This document shows positions 22,683-31,340 of a stretch of DNA of 64,000 nt, one piece after another. The position numbers and the translations under genes were made by a program. The stretch spans positions 5,003,988 to 5,067,987 of the forward strand of contig NZ_CP011272.1 in the NCBI RefSeq assembly GCF_001610875.1. The letters are read 5' to 3'. Origin of the DNA: Pirellula sp. SH-Sr6A. Its GTDB lineage: Bacteria > Planctomycetota > Planctomycetia > Pirellulales > Pirellulaceae. The notes below the pieces were generated by a model that had not been told where the DNA came from, did no database searches, and was given only the letters and a program-made list of their open reading frames with translations. The first letter of the stretch is position 1, and every line of letters begins with the position of its first letter.

Positions 22683-23513
22683 CTACGGCTTTTCGCCGTT
22701 GTAAACGCCTGTTTCCGCAGCGGGGGGTAGGTGGGCGGAGAGTTCGAAACGGGGTCGCTCGTGGCTGTTGACGAAGACCGCTATGTCGATCGCTTCCTTT
22801 TCCGTAAGTGTGGCATCGTCCAATGGCATGGCGACCTTCAGCCAAGCTCCTAAGTTTTCCACTTTTGCCAAGCCGGCTCCATCGTTGTAAGAGCGTTCAC
22901 CCCAAACCGGTGGGTTGTCGGTATCCCCTTTTCCATCCGCCCCGTGGCAATCGGCGCAGCGTTGGGCGTAAAGGGCGCGTCCACGCTCCAGGCTCCCGCT
23001 GTCCGGCTTGGCGGCTAAAAGCGAGACGGCTCGGGGGCCAACCGGCCTTTGAGGATTCATCCGCATCGATTCCCCCTGGGACAACCAAGTGATGTAAGAC
23101 TGGATGGCGATCGAGACTTTGCTGCCCAAAGGTGGGCGGACGCCATTGCAGCTCCGCATGAAACAATTGAGGACCCGATCTTCTAAAGTGACCACGGTCT
23201 GCTCGCGAGGGGCCCAAGCAGGATACGCTGTGGCAGTTCCTAAAAAACTGCCCGCAGAAGGATGCCTACCGTTTTGAAGATGGCAGCTCGTGCAGTTCAA
23301 GTCGTTGCCGAGAAACGGCTTCGAAAGCGGATGCTCGGTTGTCTTCTCGACAATCTCTTCGCCTAACCGAACCCATGCCCCCAATTCGCCAGGAGGGAGC
23401 AACGGTTTGTTCGGCAATTTCTCCTGCGCCAGGGACGGAACAGAAAGCATACTGATCGCGATCAGCGCCCCGCGTCCTGAATAACGACTGAGCAAAACTG
23501 CGATTCGCGTCAT
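22683..23513 (-). CDS. TsdA-like diheme cytochrome c (thiosulfate dehydrogenase / tetrathionate reductase family)
   Basis: 276 residues from the ATG at 23513, preceded by AAGGAAG. Signal peptide to about residue 30. Two haem c sites are visible: CTSCH at 74-78 and CADCH at 186-190. Between them lies the TsdA-type segment YPAWAPREQTVVTLEDRVLN followed by CFMRSCNG; Cys117 (or Cys122) is placed where TsdA has its unusual haem-ligating cysteine. In characterised TsdA enzymes thiosulfate and tetrathionate are interconverted in the periplasm. Here the gene ends an operon with an ECF sigma factor and an anti-sigma, opposite a sulfide operon. A role in sulfur redox is well supported, the exact substrate is not. 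Confidence 0.85.
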   Translation of the reverse strand: MTRIAVLLSRYSGRGALIAISMLSVPSLAQEKLPNKPLLPPGELGAWVRLGEEIVEKTTEHPLSKPFLGNDLNCTSCHLQNGRHPSAGSFLGTATAYPAWAPREQTVVTLEDRVLNCFMRSCNGVRPPLGSKVSIAIQSYITWLSQGESMRMNPQRPVGPRAVSLLAAKPDSGSLERGRALYAQRCADCHGADGKGDTDNPPVWGERSYNDGAGLAKVENLGAWLKVAMPLDDATLTEKEAIDIAVFVNSHERPRFELSAHLPPAAETGVYNGEKP

Positions 23514-23553
23514 TCGACTTCCTTTCAAACCCCATTGGGAGCAATGGACACCT

Positions 23554-23799
23554 TTAGCTCTTTCCAAAGGTATCGAGCCATTTCGATCGCAAGGAGGACT
23601 GCAAACGATTTTGAAATTCGGCAGGCATTTCGTACGGCACCCCCGCCTTGTACAACGCAATGGTCTGACGAATGTTGTCGACGACAACTTGGCAAGGATT
23701 GCAACCCGCCAAATGCTCGCCGAATTCTTCGCAAATCTCGGTAAGCTCCGCACCGTCGACGTATTCGTTCAATGCTTTGAGTAGTTCTTCACACGTCAT
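23554..23799 (-). CDS. Zinc-finger (zf-HC2-type) anti-sigma factor
   Basis: 81 residues from the ATG at 23799, which has a GGGGGGA ribosome-binding site; a TTG 24 bases upstream is less likely. It has the HC2 motif: His and two cysteines in EHLAGCNPCQVVVDNIR, with an earlier Cys in MTCEELLKALNEYVDG. It is short, with no membrane segment, so it would be a cytoplasmic anti-sigma. It lies 74 bases after the ECF sigma gene and 40 bases before the TsdA-like gene, so it probably controls that sigma factor. Confidence 0.85.
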   Translation of the reverse strand: MTCEELLKALNEYVDGAELTEICEEFGEHLAGCNPCQVVVDNIRQTIALYKAGVPYEMPAEFQNRLQSSLRSKWLDTFGKS

Positions 23800-23873
23800 A
23801 GTTTTGTCCCCCCAGATTGCCAACCCTGTGTGTTGGATCTGCGAGAGGAGAAATAGTTACAGGAAATAAAAGA

Positions 23874-24497
23874 TTAAACGTGTTTGTGATCGGGAATCAT
23901 CACCTGGGTTTCATCCCCAAAGCGACGCGTCAAAATCTCTCGCAATGCAAGCCTCGCACGAAGCAGCCGGACCTTGACCGTCGATTCGGTCAGTCCCAAC
24001 GCCTCTGCAGTATCCCGGACGGAGAAGCCTTCGATGTCGCGCATCACAAATACCGTTCGATACTTGTCGTCCAAATGACGCAAGGCTGCTTGGATTTCGC
24101 GTTGGACTTCTGCATCGGCCGCAATCACATCCGCGGGACGGCTCCATGGAGCGATGTACTCGGGGTGGGGCATGTCGGAGTATCCGTCCTCCCTTCCGTT
24201 GTCGAGCGACAACGCGGCGTGTCCCTTTCTTTTTCGAATCAATTTCAAGGCAAAGTTGCTTGCGATCTTCAACGCCCAAGTCGACAGAGATGATTCCTCG
24301 CGGAAGTCGCGAAGATGTTCAATCATCGCGACGAACGTTTGCTGCGTGACATCCTCCGCATCCTGCGACTGATGAAGCATTCTGTAAGCCAACCCGTAGA
24401 CACGAGGTTGCAACTCATGAATCAGCGACTGAAACGCTTGAAAGTCACCTTGCTTCGCGAGTCGCAAAAGCTCTGTGGCTTCTGGTTTTTCGCTCAA
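23874..24497 (-). CDS. ECF-type RNA polymerase sigma factor
   Basis: 207 residues. Sigma region 2 is present (LAYRMLHQSQDAEDVTQQTF and LSTWALKIASNFALKLIRKR), and region 4 (LRHLDDKYRTVFVMRDIEGF followed by TAEALGLTESTVKVRLLRAR). It is followed by a zinc-finger anti-sigma and a TsdA-like cytochrome in the same direction, so the three are likely an operon. It faces the sulfide operon across a 209-base intergenic region. A role in sensing sulfur compounds or redox state is an inference from that position. Confidence 0.93.
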   Translation of the reverse strand: MSEKPEATELLRLAKQGDFQAFQSLIHELQPRVYGLAYRMLHQSQDAEDVTQQTFVAMIEHLRDFREESSLSTWALKIASNFALKLIRKRKGHAALSLDNGREDGYSDMPHPEYIAPWSRPADVIAADAEVQREIQAALRHLDDKYRTVFVMRDIEGFSVRDTAEALGLTESTVKVRLLRARLALREILTRRFGDETQVMIPDHKHV

Positions 24498-24624
24498 TTT
24501 GTGCTCCCGAGTAGATGGATTCGTAGCAGGACGGTCTGGTTGTTCAAGGAAGTCATTACGGTAGGAAACTTCTGTTTCACGGAAAAGATTGTAACCAATT
24601 CGGGCTTGCCTGCTCTACCCTCTT

Positions 24625-24645
24625 CGTGCCGGTTGAACTGGCACG
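24625..24645. promoter_or_regulatory. 21-bp dyad upstream of the sulfide operon, candidate operator
   Basis: The sequence reads cgtgccggtt-g-aactggcacg: ten bases on each side of a central G, with nine of ten pairs complementary. No T-run follows on either strand, so it does not look like a terminator. It is centred 72 bases before the ATG of the rhodanese gene and 138 bases before the start of the divergent sigma factor gene, a suitable place for a dimeric repressor or activator. No regulator gene of the CstR or ArsR type is seen in the window. Confidence 0.5.
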
Positions 24646-24706
24646 TTCGGACGGTTCCGTTCGTTGTTGTTCGCAACTCACTTTATTCACAAGGTTTATC
24701 AAGACG

Positions 24707-25285
24707 ATGAAAACGATTCAAGCTAACGAACTCCATCAATTGATCCAGTCGGGCGAGACGATCGATTTGGTCGATGTCCGAACGCCTGTTGAGTTTCGCG
24801 AAGTCCACGTGTCCGTCGCCAAGAACATGCCGCTCGATCAGCTGCGAGCCCAAGAAGTGACAGCGGGGCGCAAGTCCTCCAGCGACAAACCCATCTATGT
24901 CATATGCCGCTCAGGGTCACGGGGTCAGCAGGCGTGCGCGAAGCTGGAGCAAGCGGGATTGAATGTGGTGAATGTTGAAGGGGGAACTAATGCGTGCGTG
25001 GCAGCCGGGTTGCCTGTGGTCCGCGGTAAGAAAGCAATGTCTCTCGAACGACAAGTTCGCATCGCCGCAGGATCGCTCGTCCTGACCGGGATACTGCTCA
25101 GCCGATTTGTTCATCCCTATTGGATCGGACTTTCCGGGTTTGTCGGTGCAGGCTTGATCTTCGCCGGTATCACCGATAGCTGCGCCATGGGCATGTTGAT
25201 CGCCAAGATGCCCTGGAACCGCGTCGGGGCTAGCAACTCCAACTCGCCGACTAGCTGTTCAGTCAAAGCACCCGCCTCCCGATAA
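24707..25285 (+). CDS. YgaP-like membrane-anchored rhodanese
   Basis: 192 residues; the ATG at 24707 begins the conserved domain. N-terminal rhodanese domain (LVDVRTPVEFREVHVSVAKN) with active-site loop CRSGSR, catalytic Cys67. The C-terminal part has a pair of membrane segments ending in a GLSGFVGAGLIFAGI motif and MPWNR, as in E. coli YgaP (DUF2892). It would move sulfane sulfur at the membrane. First gene of the sulfide operon. Confidence 0.9.
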   Translation: MKTIQANELHQLIQSGETIDLVDVRTPVEFREVHVSVAKNMPLDQLRAQEVTAGRKSSSDKPIYVICRSGSRGQQACAKLEQAGLNVVNVEGGTNACVAAGLPVVRGKKAMSLERQVRIAAGSLVLTGILLSRFVHPYWIGLSGFVGAGLIFAGITDSCAMGMLIAKMPWNRVGASNSNSPTSCSVKAPASR

Positions 25286-25379
25286 CGATGATCCACAAAC
25301 ACGAACTGCGTTGCCTTCGTCCCGCTGCGAATGCGGAAACGATTTACACATCAATAGACAGAATGATCCGAGGTTCTAA

Positions 25380-26783
25380 ATGTTGCTGAAGTATTTCTAC
25401 GACAAGTCGCTTGCTCATGCCTCGTACATGATCGGATGCCAGCGATCCGGGGAAGCGATCGTGATCGATCCCGGTCGCAACATCGATCCTTACTTAGATG
25501 CCGCTGAGGCGGAAGGCCTGAAGATTACTGGAGCCGCAGAGACTCACATCCATGCTGACTTTGTTTCCGGTTCACGAGAACTTGCGGACCGCGTCGGTGC
25601 AACGCTCTTTTTATCCGATGAGGGGCCGGCCGATTGGAAGTACTTGTTTGCAGACAAGCATTCGACGAGGCTTCTCCAAGACGGCGACACGTTCTTTGTG
25701 GGGAAGGTCAAACTCGAAGTATTGCATACCCCGGGACATACTCCGGAGAGCATCTCTTTTGTTTTGACCGACGAGGGTGGTGGTGCAAATGTCCCGATGG
25801 GGATCTTTACGGGTGATTTCGTGTTCGTAGGTTCGATCGGTCGCCCAGACCTTCTCGAATCCGCAGCGGGCGTGGTGGGAAGCGCGGATGTCGGGGCGAG
25901 ACAACTCTATCGTTCGATTGGAAAGTTTCGTTCACTTCCCGATCACTTGCAGGTCTGGCCCGCTCACGGAGCGGGAAGCGCCTGCGGCAAAGGACTTGGT
26001 GCGATCCCTTCTTCGACCGTCGGTTACGAAAGGCTGTTCAATCCTGCCTTGCAGTTCCACGATGAGGAATCGTTTATCGACTACATCCTAAAAGATCAAC
26101 CCGAGACACCCTTCTATTTTGCCAATATGAAGCATGTGAATAAGGTGGGCCCCGAATTGATCAAGAATCTTCCGGAGTTGAAGAAACTCTCACCTCAAGA
26201 AGCCGCTGAGCTTGCTCCGGTGCATATCGTGTTCGATGTGAGACCGTCGAAGGAGTTCGCGGCTGGGCATTTGCCCGGCACGATCAATTTGCCCGAGGGA
26301 AGCTTGGTGCAGTGGGCTGGCTTTCTAGCAGACCATAGAAGCCCAGCCTACCTCATCGCGTCACCCGATCGATTGCAGTCGCTTTTGGTCGGGTTGCGGT
26401 CGATTGGAATCGATTCGGTGCGAGGATTTGCAGACGTTAACGACGTGTCGAAGTCGAATCAGATGACCGAGAAATACCTATCCGCGTCCCCGCAGGAGCT
26501 CTCGGATCGAATTCGATCCGAGGAGGTCCGAGTGCTGGATGTCCGCGCAGAAACGGAGTTCCGGGAGGGGCACATCCCCGGCGCGGAACACCGGTTCCTG
26601 GGGCGACTTCTCAAAGAGATCAAAACCATCGACCGATCGAAACCCGTGGTCGCGCAGTGCTTGGGAGGCGGACGATCTGCCATCGCTACCAGCATCCTGC
26701 AGAGAGAAGGATTTCAGGTAACCAATATGGAAGGTGGTTACCGAGCGTGGGTCGCATCGGGGTTACCCACAGCCACCGCATAG
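25380..26783 (+). CDS. Persulfide dioxygenase-rhodanese fusion, CstB-like
   Basis: 467 residues in three parts. Residues 1-250 are a metallo-beta-lactamase-fold persulfide dioxygenase with the ETHE1-type iron ligands His56 (ETHIHAD), His120 (HTPGHT) and Asp146 (FTGD). Residues about 270-365 are a rhodanese-like domain without a catalytic cysteine (PAYLIASPDR in its place). Residues about 370-467 are an active-type rhodanese with Cys427 (AQCLGGGRS). This is the layout of Staphylococcus CstB, which turns persulfide into thiosulfate. It follows the YgaP-like gene after 94 bases; GAGG precedes the ATG. Confidence 0.92.
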   Translation: MLLKYFYDKSLAHASYMIGCQRSGEAIVIDPGRNIDPYLDAAEAEGLKITGAAETHIHADFVSGSRELADRVGATLFLSDEGPADWKYLFADKHSTRLLQDGDTFFVGKVKLEVLHTPGHTPESISFVLTDEGGGANVPMGIFTGDFVFVGSIGRPDLLESAAGVVGSADVGARQLYRSIGKFRSLPDHLQVWPAHGAGSACGKGLGAIPSSTVGYERLFNPALQFHDEESFIDYILKDQPETPFYFANMKHVNKVGPELIKNLPELKKLSPQEAAELAPVHIVFDVRPSKEFAAGHLPGTINLPEGSLVQWAGFLADHRSPAYLIASPDRLQSLLVGLRSIGIDSVRGFADVNDVSKSNQMTEKYLSASPQELSDRIRSEEVRVLDVRAETEFREGHIPGAEHRFLGRLLKEIKTIDRSKPVVAQCLGGGRSAIATSILQREGFQVTNMEGGYRAWVASGLPTATA

Positions 26784-26824
26784 TTGCGTGCGATTGTGCC
26801 CCTTCGATCTAGGAAGAAAACGAA

Positions 26825-27643
26825 ATGATGATTGTCATCACGCTTTTAGCTGGATCCTTGGTCGGCTTCTCCTTGGGCCTGACCGGTGGCGGAGGGGCGA
26901 TTTTCGCGGTCCCGCTCTTGGTGTATCTGATCGGTCTACCCACGAGAGAAGCCGTTGGCGTCTCGCTTCTTACCGTTGGCTCTACCTCGCTCGTCGGCTT
27001 TCTCTACCGAGCGAGAAAAGGGCAAGTCGAAATACTAACTGGTGTCGTATTCGCGCTGGCCGGCATGATCGGTGCACCGATTGGTTCAAAGATCGCAGAT
27101 GCCGTTCCCGAGAACATTCTGATCGTTCTCTTTTCGATTTTGATGATCGCCATCGCTGGCCGAATGGCATGGAAGGCAAAGACACCGTCTTCTCAACTCC
27201 CCATTTTACCGCATCGCGATGACGATCCTGGACCGACCTGCAAACGAGATCCGGAGGGGAAGCTGCGAATGACCTCCCCGTGCGCCATTCTCTTAGCGGT
27301 AGTGGGTTTGGGTGCAGGAGTTCTAACCGGAATGTTTGGAGTCGGAGGCGGTTTCATCATCGTTCCGGCGTTGGTTACCTTTGCGGGTATGGGAATGCAA
27401 AGGGCGATCGGAACATCGCTGCTCGTGATCACCCTGGTCAGTCTTTCAGGAGTGGTTTCGCAAATCGCAGGAGGTCGGAATCTCTCCGTCGAAATCGCAT
27501 CGCTCTTTACCTTGGGGAGCGTCTTGGGTCTGTTTGCAGGAACGGCTCTAGCGACGCGATTGGCTGGTCCCGTTTTGCAACGTCTCTTTGCAGCAGCAAT
27601 CCTCGCCGTGGCCTGCCTGGTGCTTTACCAAGCTCTGAGCTGA
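26825..27643 (+). CDS. TauE/SafE (TSUP) family sulfite/sulfur-anion exporter
   Basis: 272 residues, almost all hydrophobic, with about eight membrane segments. Two family repeats start with GFSLGLTGGGGAIFAVPLLV and GVLTGMFGVGGGFIIVPALV. Transporters of this family move sulfite, sulfoacetate or related anions. Its position between a persulfide dioxygenase and a sulfide:quinone oxidoreductase, as in cst operons, points to removal of sulfite or thiosulfate. A polar loop of about 30 residues separates the two halves. Confidence 0.9.
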   Translation: MMIVITLLAGSLVGFSLGLTGGGGAIFAVPLLVYLIGLPTREAVGVSLLTVGSTSLVGFLYRARKGQVEILTGVVFALAGMIGAPIGSKIADAVPENILIVLFSILMIAIAGRMAWKAKTPSSQLPILPHRDDDPGPTCKRDPEGKLRMTSPCAILLAVVGLGAGVLTGMFGVGGGFIIVPALVTFAGMGMQRAIGTSLLVITLVSLSGVVSQIAGGRNLSVEIASLFTLGSVLGLFAGTALATRLAGPVLQRLFAAAILAVACLVLYQALS

Positions 27644-27674
27644 TGCGCTTACTCCATTCGTAGAAATTGAAACC

Positions 27675-28877
27675 ATGAATCGTTTAGATCGCACCAATCA
27701 CTTCCAAGTACTCATCTTGGGTGGCGGGACAGCCGGGATTACAGTAGCCGCCCAATTGCAGCGAAAGCGCCCCAAGGTGCAGATCGGAATTGTTGAGCCA
27801 TCGACAAAGCATTATTACCAACCTCTATGGACCCTCTCCGGGGCCGGAGTCTTTCCTAAGGAGCAGAGCGAACGCGACGAATCAGCCTTTATCCCTCGGG
27901 ACGCGACCTGGGTCCGCGAATCGGTCCAAGATATCCTGCCGGGTGAAAATGCCATCTTCACTCGTGAGGGGACACGTATCACCTACGATTTTCTCATCGT
28001 TGCCCTGGGGATCCAAATCGACTGGGACTTGATCCCTGGCCTGCGTCAAGGTCTCGGGAGTCAGCAGATTTGTAGCAATTACTCGTATCAACACGTCGAT
28101 TACACTTGGGAGTGCATCAGGGGCTTTAGCGGTGGAAACGCACTTTTCACCATGCCAAACACCGCTGTGAAATGCGGAGGTGCTCCCCAAAAAATCATGT
28201 ATCTCGCAGACGATGCCATGAGAAAACGCGGAGTAAGGGCCAAAGCCAATATCATCTACGCAACGGCCCAGCCATTTCTGTTCGCGATCGAAAAATACCG
28301 CACGACCCTTGAACAAGTCGTTGCACGCAAGAAGATCGACGTTCGATTGCGACACAATCTTCGCGCCATCGATCCAGAGAAAAAGACCGTGGAACTCGAT
28401 CGAATCGATATCGGGGACACCGTTACTCTCCCCTTCGACCTGCTTCACGTTACCCCGCCGATGAGCTCACCCGACGTCATCAAAGCGAGCCCCTTAGCCA
28501 ATGCGAGCGGTTGGGTGGAAGTCGATCCGTTTACGCTTCAGTCGCCGAAATTTCCGAATGTGTTCGGAGTAGGAGACTGCAGCGGACTCCCAACTTCTAA
28601 AACCGGGGCCGCCATTCGCAAGCAAGCCCCCGTGGTGGTCGCGAATTTGATCTCAGCCCTCGAGTCCAAGCCTCTGGAAGCAAAGTACGATGGATACACT
28701 TCATGCCCCATCGTTACAGGATACGGAAGACTCGTCTTGGCGGAATTCGACTATGAAGGAACACCGCGAGAGACCTTCCCCATTGACCAATCCAAAGAGC
28801 GACTATCGATGTATTTGTTAAAGGCTTATGCGCTTCCCAAACTTTTTTGGCATGGGATGCTTCGCGGATTGGCGTAG
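27675..28877 (+). CDS. sqr: Sulfide:quinone oxidoreductase, type II (SQOR-like)
   Basis: 400-residue FAD enzyme that oxidises sulfide and passes electrons to quinone. The FAD-binding start is VLILGGGTAGITVAAQL. Redox cysteines are Cys167 (NTAVKCGGAPQKIMYL) and Cys344 (DGYTSCPIVTGYGR), the two positions of the human enzyme. The C-terminus (ETFPIDQSKERLSMYLLKAY and HGMLRG) is also close to human SQOR. No signal peptide; it attaches to the inner face of the membrane. It is the last gene of the operon, 31 bases after the exporter gene, and convergent with the next gene. Confidence 0.95.
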   Translation: MNRLDRTNHFQVLILGGGTAGITVAAQLQRKRPKVQIGIVEPSTKHYYQPLWTLSGAGVFPKEQSERDESAFIPRDATWVRESVQDILPGENAIFTREGTRITYDFLIVALGIQIDWDLIPGLRQGLGSQQICSNYSYQHVDYTWECIRGFSGGNALFTMPNTAVKCGGAPQKIMYLADDAMRKRGVRAKANIIYATAQPFLFAIEKYRTTLEQVVARKKIDVRLRHNLRAIDPEKKTVELDRIDIGDTVTLPFDLLHVTPPMSSPDVIKASPLANASGWVEVDPFTLQSPKFPNVFGVGDCSGLPTSKTGAAIRKQAPVVVANLISALESKPLEAKYDGYTSCPIVTGYGRLVLAEFDYEGTPRETFPIDQSKERLSMYLLKAYALPKLFWHGMLRGLA

Positions 28878-30201: not shown

Positions 30202-31176
30202 CTAGATCTGGTAATTGAGCTCGGGCAAAACGTCCTCCGTGGTGCTGCGAATCCGAAGCTTAGGTTTTTCCAAAACCACTGTGGAATGGGGAGCGACACT
30301 GCTCGTGACCCAGACGCTCGATCCAATAACGCTATCATGGCCAACGGTTGTCCGACCTCCGAGGATCGTTGCATTGGCGTAAATGACGACACGATCTTCA
30401 ATGGTGGGGTGCCGTTTCGCACCTCGGACGAGCTGGCCATCTGCATCGGTGACAAAACTCAACGCCCCTAGCGTCACGCCTTGATAGATCTTAACTCGAT
30501 CTCCGATTTCACATGTTTCCCCGATGACCACGCCTGTTCCGTGATCGATGAAGAAATATTCGCCGATCTTCGCACCTGGATGGATGTCGATACCCGTTTG
30601 CTTGTGCGCCCATTCGGTCATCATTCTCGGGATGAACGGGACACCGAAGTGAACGAGTTCGTGCGCGATTCGGTAGATGGTGACTGCCTCCAAACCGGGG
30701 AAGCAGAAGATGATCTCGTCGCGATTGGTAACGCTCGGGTCCCCGTCGTACGCAGCTTCCACATCCTTGGCCAACATAGCTCGAAGAGCGGGAATGCGTT
30801 CCAGGAGTGCGATAGCAATGAGTTGTCCGCGAGCTTCGTAATCCTCTTTCGAGTCGCAGGGATTGGCGAGCTTCGATTTGCTCTCAACACGATCGGCATG
30901 GAGCAGGGCTCGAGCGATCTGCGTCGTGAGCCTGTCGTGCAACTTGTCGATCAAATCCCCCACGTGGTAACTCACGTTTCCAGCATGGAGCCCCTCTCGG
31001 CGGCGAAAGCCCGGGTAAAGAATGTCTTTGAGGTCCTCGAGGATCTCCAAGATGACTTCGTACTTGGGGAGAGGACAATGTCCCAAATGGTTGATTCGGT
31101 CGTGGGGCGTGTAGGTCCGGACAATCGCATCGGTCAGACGCGGCAATTGTTCTTTCAATCGAAAATCGGACGCCAT
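30202..31176 (-). CDS. cysE: Serine O-acetyltransferase (EpsC/SrpH type)
   Basis: Acetylates serine to O-acetylserine, the carbon skeleton for cysteine. 324 residues from the ATG at 31176; an ATG 78 bases upstream adds a proline-rich tail that is probably not translated. The N-terminal helical domain is followed by the left-handed beta-helix with [40 protein letters not shown] and [20 protein letters not shown]. The long N-terminal domain places it in the EpsC-type branch. It precedes the ketosynthase homologue by 8 bases. Confidence 0.92.
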
Positions 31177-31340
31177 GATGGGAATCGCTAAGGTTGGGAA
31201 ACGAGAGCGTGGCGGAGGAGGACTCGATCGCCGTGCTCTGTTCATGTTCGGCACCGCGAAACAAGCGAAGTCAGTGTTTCCGTCAGAAGCCGAAGCGGCT
31301 GCCCATATTACCTAGCCATCCCATTTTAAGCAAACAGACT

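Follow-up and report, generated by a model that had tools for sequence, protein, structure and literature searches.

Seven genes at positions 22683-28877 of the window, a 64-kb stretch of the single 6.53-Mb contig that makes up the genome of Pirellula sp. SH-Sr6A, probably form a self-contained sulfur-stress switch. An extracytoplasmic function (ECF) sigma factor, named SIG here, and a predicted soluble zinc anti-sigma factor, ZAS, would govern sulfide and persulfide genes from shared promoters, the signal being reactive sulfane sulfur acting through loss of zinc from ZAS. The reverse strand carries SIG (23874-24497), ZAS (81 aa, 23554-23799) and, about 40 bp behind ZAS, a TsdA-like diheme cytochrome (22683-23513). 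The forward strand carries RHOD, a rhodanese with YgaP-type membrane helices (24707-25285), a CstB-like persulfide dioxygenase with the metallo-β-lactamase fold (25380-26783), a TauE/SafE-family exporter (26825-27643) and a sulfide:quinone oxidoreductase (SQR, 27675-28877). All seven frames are open at these positions.

A two-block motif precedes both arms, and none was found in front of SIG. It was initially read by eye, as TGTAAC-N15-[GT]G[AC]TC, in the DNA preceding sulfur and thiol genes that adjoin SIG-ZAS pairs, and then tested elsewhere, with a spacing of 14-16 allowed and the base in front of G[AC]TC left free (TGTAAC-N15-NG[AC]TC). None of the sites read by eye lay in front of ZAS. 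In the window, the predicted SIG-dependent promoter of ZAS-TsdA, TGTAACTATTTCTCCTCTCGCAGATC (23836-23861, reverse strand), starts 62 bp before the ATG of ZAS. That of the rhodanese operon, TGTAACCAATTCGGGCTTGCCTGCTC (24590-24615, forward strand), starts 117 bp before the ATG of RHOD and matches the pattern exactly. When the 64 kb were scanned with a matrix built from 51 sites, window excluded, the sites at 23861 (-) and 24590 (+) ranked first and second with scores of 22.9 and 14.8; the next scored 11.6, and the reversed matrix reached 5.2 at most.

The motif is tightly tied to the SIG-ZAS pair in the clade of the window and in Verrucomicrobiota. The best 80 loci from a SIG-alignment scan of titled genomes were considered. 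The 44 best among the loci listed (47-66% identity) come from metagenome-assembled genomes (MAGs) labelled Planctomycetota or Verrucomicrobiota, two being labelled only 'bacterium' and some labels being doubtful. ZAS was matched in 32 of these 44, giving 33 SIG-ZAS loci with the window. The pattern occurs within 160 bp before ZAS in 24/33 loci (300 shuffles: mean 0.00, maximum 1), and within 300 bp before SIG in none of the 33 loci with ZAS and none of the 12 without. It lies before 9 of the 27 cassette genes of SIG loci, and before 0 of 126 rhodanese, TauE or CstB genes in 58 loci that lack SIG-ZAS. Over whole loci, 57 hits were counted in 467 kb (32 SIG+ZAS loci), against 4 in 1,019 kb (the 58 cassettes without SIG), 2 in 593 kb (36 loci of other ECF factors) and 4 in 160 kb (12 SIG loci without ZAS), two of the last coming from L159, which is cut inside SIG. 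SIG alone was discarded as a marker of the system, as relatives without adjacent ZAS are mostly found beside other genes; in two genomes with an unpaired SIG, ZAS was found elsewhere, with no matrix hit. The spacing to G[AC]TC is 16 bases in 51 of 78 loosely paired boxes, and the spacer is little constrained apart from its YTTT start. This loose spacer, together with sites before unrelated genes, makes plain common descent of the DNA unlikely as the cause of the motif, although some motif-bearing loci are nevertheless close kin.

Four congener loci having no 40-mer in common with the training loci were held out. At a matrix score above 12 they yielded nine hits over 60 kb, whereas the two control sets had 3 over 1,019 kb and 2 over 593 kb. 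These hits precede ZAS and the sulfur or transporter side; the motif stands at both arms in three loci and at the sole arm present in the fourth. The sulfur-side sites of one genome (G302) score only 16.7 and 12.7 and do not match the exact pattern. In the genus of the window, seven matrix hits are left once ZAS sites are excluded: five stand before rhodanese, CstB or YeeE/YedE genes, one before a thioredoxin gene and one before an unknown gene. Joint regulation of the two arms, which the first-pass annotation had deduced from gene position, is thus supported by a predicted promoter that lies before both, was not found before SIG, and recurs in held-out congeners.

Counts of genome-wide sites against a reversed-pattern control were 13 and 11 (G000), 11 and 8 (G144), 22 and 23 (G208), and 8 and 5 (G168). 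As few sites therefore exist beyond the local cluster, the regulon looks local. For G000, a regulon spanning the genome was rejected, since the strict pattern gives 10 sites and its reversed control 9. Ten of the 14 other sites in G000 were inspected; all lie inside a mechanically called open reading frame, one being also 19 bp before another. A sigma-70 promoter scan gave nothing above chance (1 found, 3.4 expected), and dyad enumeration in 45 sequences upstream of SIG gave no autoregulation motif. The 8-mer TTGCGGCT is present in 7 of these 45 (shuffle maxima 4-6). A conserved GTTACA upstream of SIG was dismissed as a separate element, being the reverse strand of the operon promoter.

Behind motif sites, 35 proteins were picked by hand; ZAS was excluded, and the TsdA gene of L141, second behind its site, was included. 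Their domains are rhodanese (14), YgaP-type membrane (6), DUF6132 (4), thioredoxin (3), HlyD (3), response regulator (2) and Sulf_transp (2). In Verrucomicrobia loci, a PF03601 membrane protein (L157:7865-9262) and a di-haem cytochrome c peroxidase (L171:10789-11835) also stand behind motif sites.

Residues C3, C23, H29, C33 and C36 of ZAS are invariant in 16/16 aligned rows, and are present in all 31 proteins of the titled loci, 26 of them matching a pattern and five being read by eye. With a zf-HC2 domain (PF13490, 26.7 bits, cut-off 22.2), an HxxxCxxC motif and a place beside an ECF gene, ZAS fits a zinc anti-sigma factor as far as its sequence tells; no membrane stretch was seen by eye in its 81 residues. 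It aligns with RsrA (5frf) without gaps over 35 N-terminal residues including C3, at a non-significant E of 0.11, and would be RsrA-like in its residues, a resemblance only, rather than an RsrA. The partnership with SIG is supported by one-frame fusions in two genomes, G145 (L033:1468-2331) and that of L166 (9755-10600), which are 77% alike, have the anti-sigma part first and lie beside thioredoxin genes. SIG possesses both sigma-70 regions 2 and 4 (Pfam Sigma70_r2 66.7 bits, r4_2 63.7 bits; TIGR02937 106.6 bits, cut-off 42.9). Its C-terminal tail is His-rich (PDHKHV) and may bind metal; among the 42 relatives whose C terminus is complete, 39 have at least two His there. Within the last 15 residues, at least two His occur in 38/44 of the SIG family (window SIG, L141-L184) and 1/36 more distant ECF factors.

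A search for CstB in 296 genomes, own included (cut-off 1e-30), returned matches in 108, in two groups of 54-71% and about 35-44% identity. Neighborhoods were drawn for 60 of the 126 other CstB places (46 closest, 14 more distant) and for L031 (G144). SIG and ZAS adjoin the cassette in L031, L082 (G208), L085 (G168) and the window. An ArsR-type gene lies upstream on the same strand in 34 of 58 other cassette loci; neither this gene nor SIG-ZAS was found in the remaining 24, of which at least one (L086) starts at a contig end. No ArsR-type gene lies beside the window cassette. Among the 11 SIG-bearing cassettes (window, L141, L145, L146, L148, L149, L154, L274, L275, L276 and L278), only L148 has one, a weak hit on the other strand, about 3.8 kb from the rhodanese gene. 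With L148 counted, the Fisher p for the split is 0.003, a rough value that treats related genomes as independent. From this split of the ArsR-type gene between SIG and non-SIG cassettes, a swap between ArsR-type and sigma regulators is inferred. One ArsR-type gene from a relative scored 49.8 of 155 against the BigR model.

The first-pass annotation named CstR as the usual regulator of such operons and proposed a different control logic here. The latter stands: no member of the CsoR/CstR family (PF02583) was found in the own genome, while 6 of 14 control genomes were positive, and an ECF/anti-sigma pair is present instead. The former does not carry over to the relatives, as the gene before 34/58 related cassettes is of ArsR type and not CstR.

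Besides the window, 11 clear SIG relatives (42-63% identity, followed by a drop to 37%) were obtained from 146 genomes of the order, own included. Of 20 further genomes sampled in the genus, 5 encode an orthologue of SIG (E ~2e-47 or better). In G297, TsdA-ZAS-SIG diverges from CstB-TauE, with SQR. In G302 the same genes diverge, with a rhodanese gene, and SQR was not found in the stretch. G308 keeps this divergent layout; it has YeeE/YedE genes, its CstB belongs to the other group (37%), and its TsdA gene reaches the edge of the contig. In G309 the contig stops inside SIG, with rhodanese-CstB-TauE opposite. G305 and the MAG 'Pirellula sp. Prado161' (L143) share one and the same locus, where SIG-ZAS is accompanied by rhodanese, thioredoxin and RND-type genes. 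Five genomes thus show the divergent plan with TsdA: the window, G208 (another genus), G297, G302 and G308. The search of relatives for the two-way arrangement, as proposed in the first-pass annotation, was therefore successful in part, returning four other genomes, which cover part of the genus and one other genus, along with five congeners that lack CstB. TsdA was rejected as a fixed member of the cassette: of 39 among the 296 genomes that have it, only two (window and G208) were seen to carry it beside SIG-ZAS. In G302, a 283-aa protein (L275:10652-11503) without a Pfam (E 0.001) or NCBIfam (E 1e-10) match is encoded between a predicted SIG promoter and the rhodanese gene.

SIG-ZAS accompanies CstB proteins of two groups (69-73% and 37-41%). 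More tentatively than for the locus itself, it is proposed that this family of ECF sigma factors and soluble zinc anti-sigma factors is a dedicated reactive-sulfur sensor, thinly spread in Planctomycetota and Verrucomicrobiota. The family would use its own promoter, TGTAAC-N15-NGMTC, to drive the anti-sigma factor and not itself, would replace ArsR-type repression of sulfide operons, and would stay in place while the enzyme genes change. In a tree, the window groups with Pirellulaceae MAGs (bootstrap not settled). Some SIG relatives without an adjacent anti-sigma gene (L032, L034-L037, L039 and L041) adjoin a conserved gene of CoA-ligase-like type (MSIRNLDKIF..., assigned by eye), which suggests a different role. 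In L280 and L281, both from f17 genomes, ZAS is separated from SIG and has cytochrome bd oxidase-type genes near it (by Pfam in L281, by eye in L280); a YgaP-type membrane segment is also near ZAS in L280.

In the proposed mechanism, SIG would have its own promoter, and ZAS, with zinc bound at the RsrA-like Cys/His cluster, would keep it inactive in the cytoplasm. Accumulation of reactive sulfane sulfur, as persulfide or polysulfide derived from sulfide, would persulfidate or oxidize the ZAS cysteines, so that zinc is lost and SIG is freed. RNA polymerase with SIG would then start at the TGTAAC-N15-NG[AC]TC promoters before both arms. The ZAS-TsdA arm would supply negative feedback and a thiosulfate dehydrogenase; the rhodanese-CstB-TauE-SQR arm would convert sulfide to persulfide, then to sulfite and thiosulfate, and export the sulfite. 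As sulfane sulfur drops, fresh reduced ZAS would recapture SIG. Reading of the motif by SIG, binding of SIG by ZAS, the signal, the loss of zinc and the enzyme activities are the conjectural steps. Putative persulfide sensing through zinc loss is favored. In PerR, according to the accessible part of that report (PMC9952342), polysulfide persulfidates a structural zinc site and the zinc is lost, which provides a precedent.

Several results weigh against this reading. ZAS scores 29.8 bits against the RsrA model TIGR03988, below the equivalog cut-off of 62.5, and the solved structure it matches best is that of RsiW (5wuq, E 1.3e-4) and not that of RsrA (5frf). Structure models are too poor to show docking, the predicted template modelling score (pTM) being 0.33 for ZAS and 0.41 for the ZAS-SIG fusion. 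The RHOD site, which was itself among the sites first spotted by eye, scores below every training site (minimum 16.9). Nine of the 33 ZAS loci (L143, L147, L148, L152, L156, L166, L173, L174 and L183) have no motif in the scanned 160 bp, L152 having one just farther up. No CstB match was found in five congeners (G133, G152, G224, G240 and G270). The pair is rare: a strict ZAS search (E 1e-18) returned 5 of 392 genomes of the phylum, own included. In the four loci apart from the window (L279-L282) no matrix score exceeds 12, and in L279 and L281 RND-type genes are nearby. Elsewhere among relatives, SIG-ZAS occurs together with RND pumps, response regulators or a P-type-ATPase-like gene, some of these labels being given by eye.

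It is conceivable, though unlikely, that the same circuit, with SIG reading the shared promoter and ZAS holding SIG, responds to general thiol-oxidative, electrophile or metal stress, with the sulfur genes as one output. SigR/RsrA of Streptomyces is the model for such a circuit; ZAS weakly resembles RsrA, the genes near the pair elsewhere encode thioredoxin, HlyD/RND pumps, cytochrome c peroxidase and a P-type-ATPase-like protein (RND and ATPase by eye), and RND-type genes lie near distant pairs. Two results point away from it: in the genus of the window five of the seven non-ZAS hits head sulfur genes of the kinds named above, and outside the local cluster the sites in four genomes barely exceed the reversed-pattern control, unlike a broad thiol-stress regulon.

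An effector such as sulfite or tetrathionate, acting on the same circuit as with proteobacterial ECF factors that control sulfite oxidation, is improbable. TauE and TsdA in the gene set would suit it, as would the sulfite-responsive ECF factors and an RpoE1-like factor activated by tetrathionate described in the accessible portions of the published work (PMC3511301, PMC6527743). No sulfite-oxidizing enzyme is among the seven genes, however, and the Sinorhizobium meliloti promoters have GAA and GT elements in the part of the source available (PMC3511301), unlike TGTAAC/GMTC. It is least probable, and very much so, that the motif is an operator of another regulator or a promoter for another sigma factor, with SIG-ZAS merely travelling along. 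Binding of the motif by SIG is a prediction, and the genome contains 39 matches to the sigma region-4 family; yet the motif has two blocks at fixed spacing, tracks SIG together with ZAS before unrelated genes, and hardly exceeds background next to comparable cassettes that lack SIG. The sulfane-sulfur switch is retained as the preferred reading. The observation made in the first-pass annotation is confirmed, and the finding is stronger than first stated.

The cst operon of Staphylococcus aureus is controlled by CstR. The locus shares with it a CstB-like dioxygenase-rhodanese, a rhodanese, a TauE-type exporter and SQR. It differs by its ECF/anti-sigma pair and predicted two-arm promoter, by the addition of TsdA, by an SQR nearest to human SQOR and by the lack of any PF02583 match in the genome. 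Like SigR/RsrA, it has a predicted soluble zinc anti-sigma factor with similar Cys/His spacing, but its predicted targets are sulfur genes, its predicted promoter is different, its regulon looks local and ZAS is nearer to RsiW.

ECF sigma factors for sulfite oxidation are described for S. meliloti and Starkeya novella in the consulted excerpts of two papers (PMC3511301, PMC6527743). As there, a sigma factor would control oxidation of sulfur compounds, with the anti-sigma and target genes nearby; compared by output and promoter, theirs are sulfite oxidation and GAA/GT elements, whereas the locus has sulfide/persulfide genes and TGTAAC-N15-NGMTC. ArsR-type sulfane-sulfur repressors include sHdrR and SoxR, as given in the available text of PMC12423496. 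These and BigR/SqrR likewise control sulfide or thiosulfate genes, but are one-component repressors, whereas the window cassette has a sigma/anti-sigma pair. Bacterial sulfide and sulfane-sulfur sensors in the portions of the literature examined are mostly one-component DNA-binding proteins, and the locus suggests an alternative in which a sigma factor, once released, activates the genes. In the literature consulted, chiefly openly accessible, no description was found of ECF/zinc anti-sigma control of sulfide/persulfide genes. Such control of a sulfide/persulfide cassette through a conserved promoter, as predicted from sequence, would be a new variation on known systems. The promoter sequence makes targets predictable and testable in reporter strains. 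The locus also opens a way to study sulfur stress in the Planctomycetota and Verrucomicrobiota, and illustrates a probable exchange of regulator on a pathway that is otherwise conserved.

The assignment of the seven genes on two strands, made at first from motifs, is borne out by open frames, Pfam and solved structures. The TsdA-like cytochrome (SoxA-TsdA_cyt-c domain PF21342, 36.9 bits, cut-off 27; Cytochrome_CBB3, 38.8 bits) matches 5lo9 (E 3.1e-44) and the thiosulfate dehydrogenase 4wqd (E 1e-34), and is 62% identical to the TsdA-like protein at the same place in L082. It has two CxxCH motifs and a Cys that aligns, by eye, with that of the 'dCFeRS' stretch in known TsdA, which is presumably a heme ligand. 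With this domain, two hemes and a Cys ligand, it appears to belong to the TsdA family.

RHOD (Rhodanese 55.6 bits, YgaP-like_TM 33.1) carries CRSGSR, and the last rhodanese domain of the CstB-like protein carries CLGGGRS (both by eye). The latter protein (Lactamase_B 55.9 bits, two Rhodanese stretches) matches 3tp9 (E 1e-144) and 3r2u (E 2.3e-112) over nearly its full length and is the only full-length CstB match found in the genome; a metallo-β-lactamase domain together with two rhodanese domains fits a predicted CstB. The exporter scores 167.8 bits with TauE. SQR (Pyr_redox_2, 52.4 bits) has human SQOR as its closest solved relative (E 5.8e-131; next non-SQOR chain 9.3e-21). Its best NCBIfam model is a type III selenoprotein, at 236 of the 525 bits required and thus below cut-off; 'type II' is assumed here from the SQOR match and the general scheme of SQR types, no type-specific NCBIfam model reaching its cut-off. 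As the locus has no GC anomaly, a foreign origin judged by GC is unsupported. On the reverse strand 1.3 kb beyond SQR, a serine O-acetyltransferase-like gene (30202-31254; cysE model 166 of 210.65 bits, under cut-off) suggests a possible link to cysteine supply.

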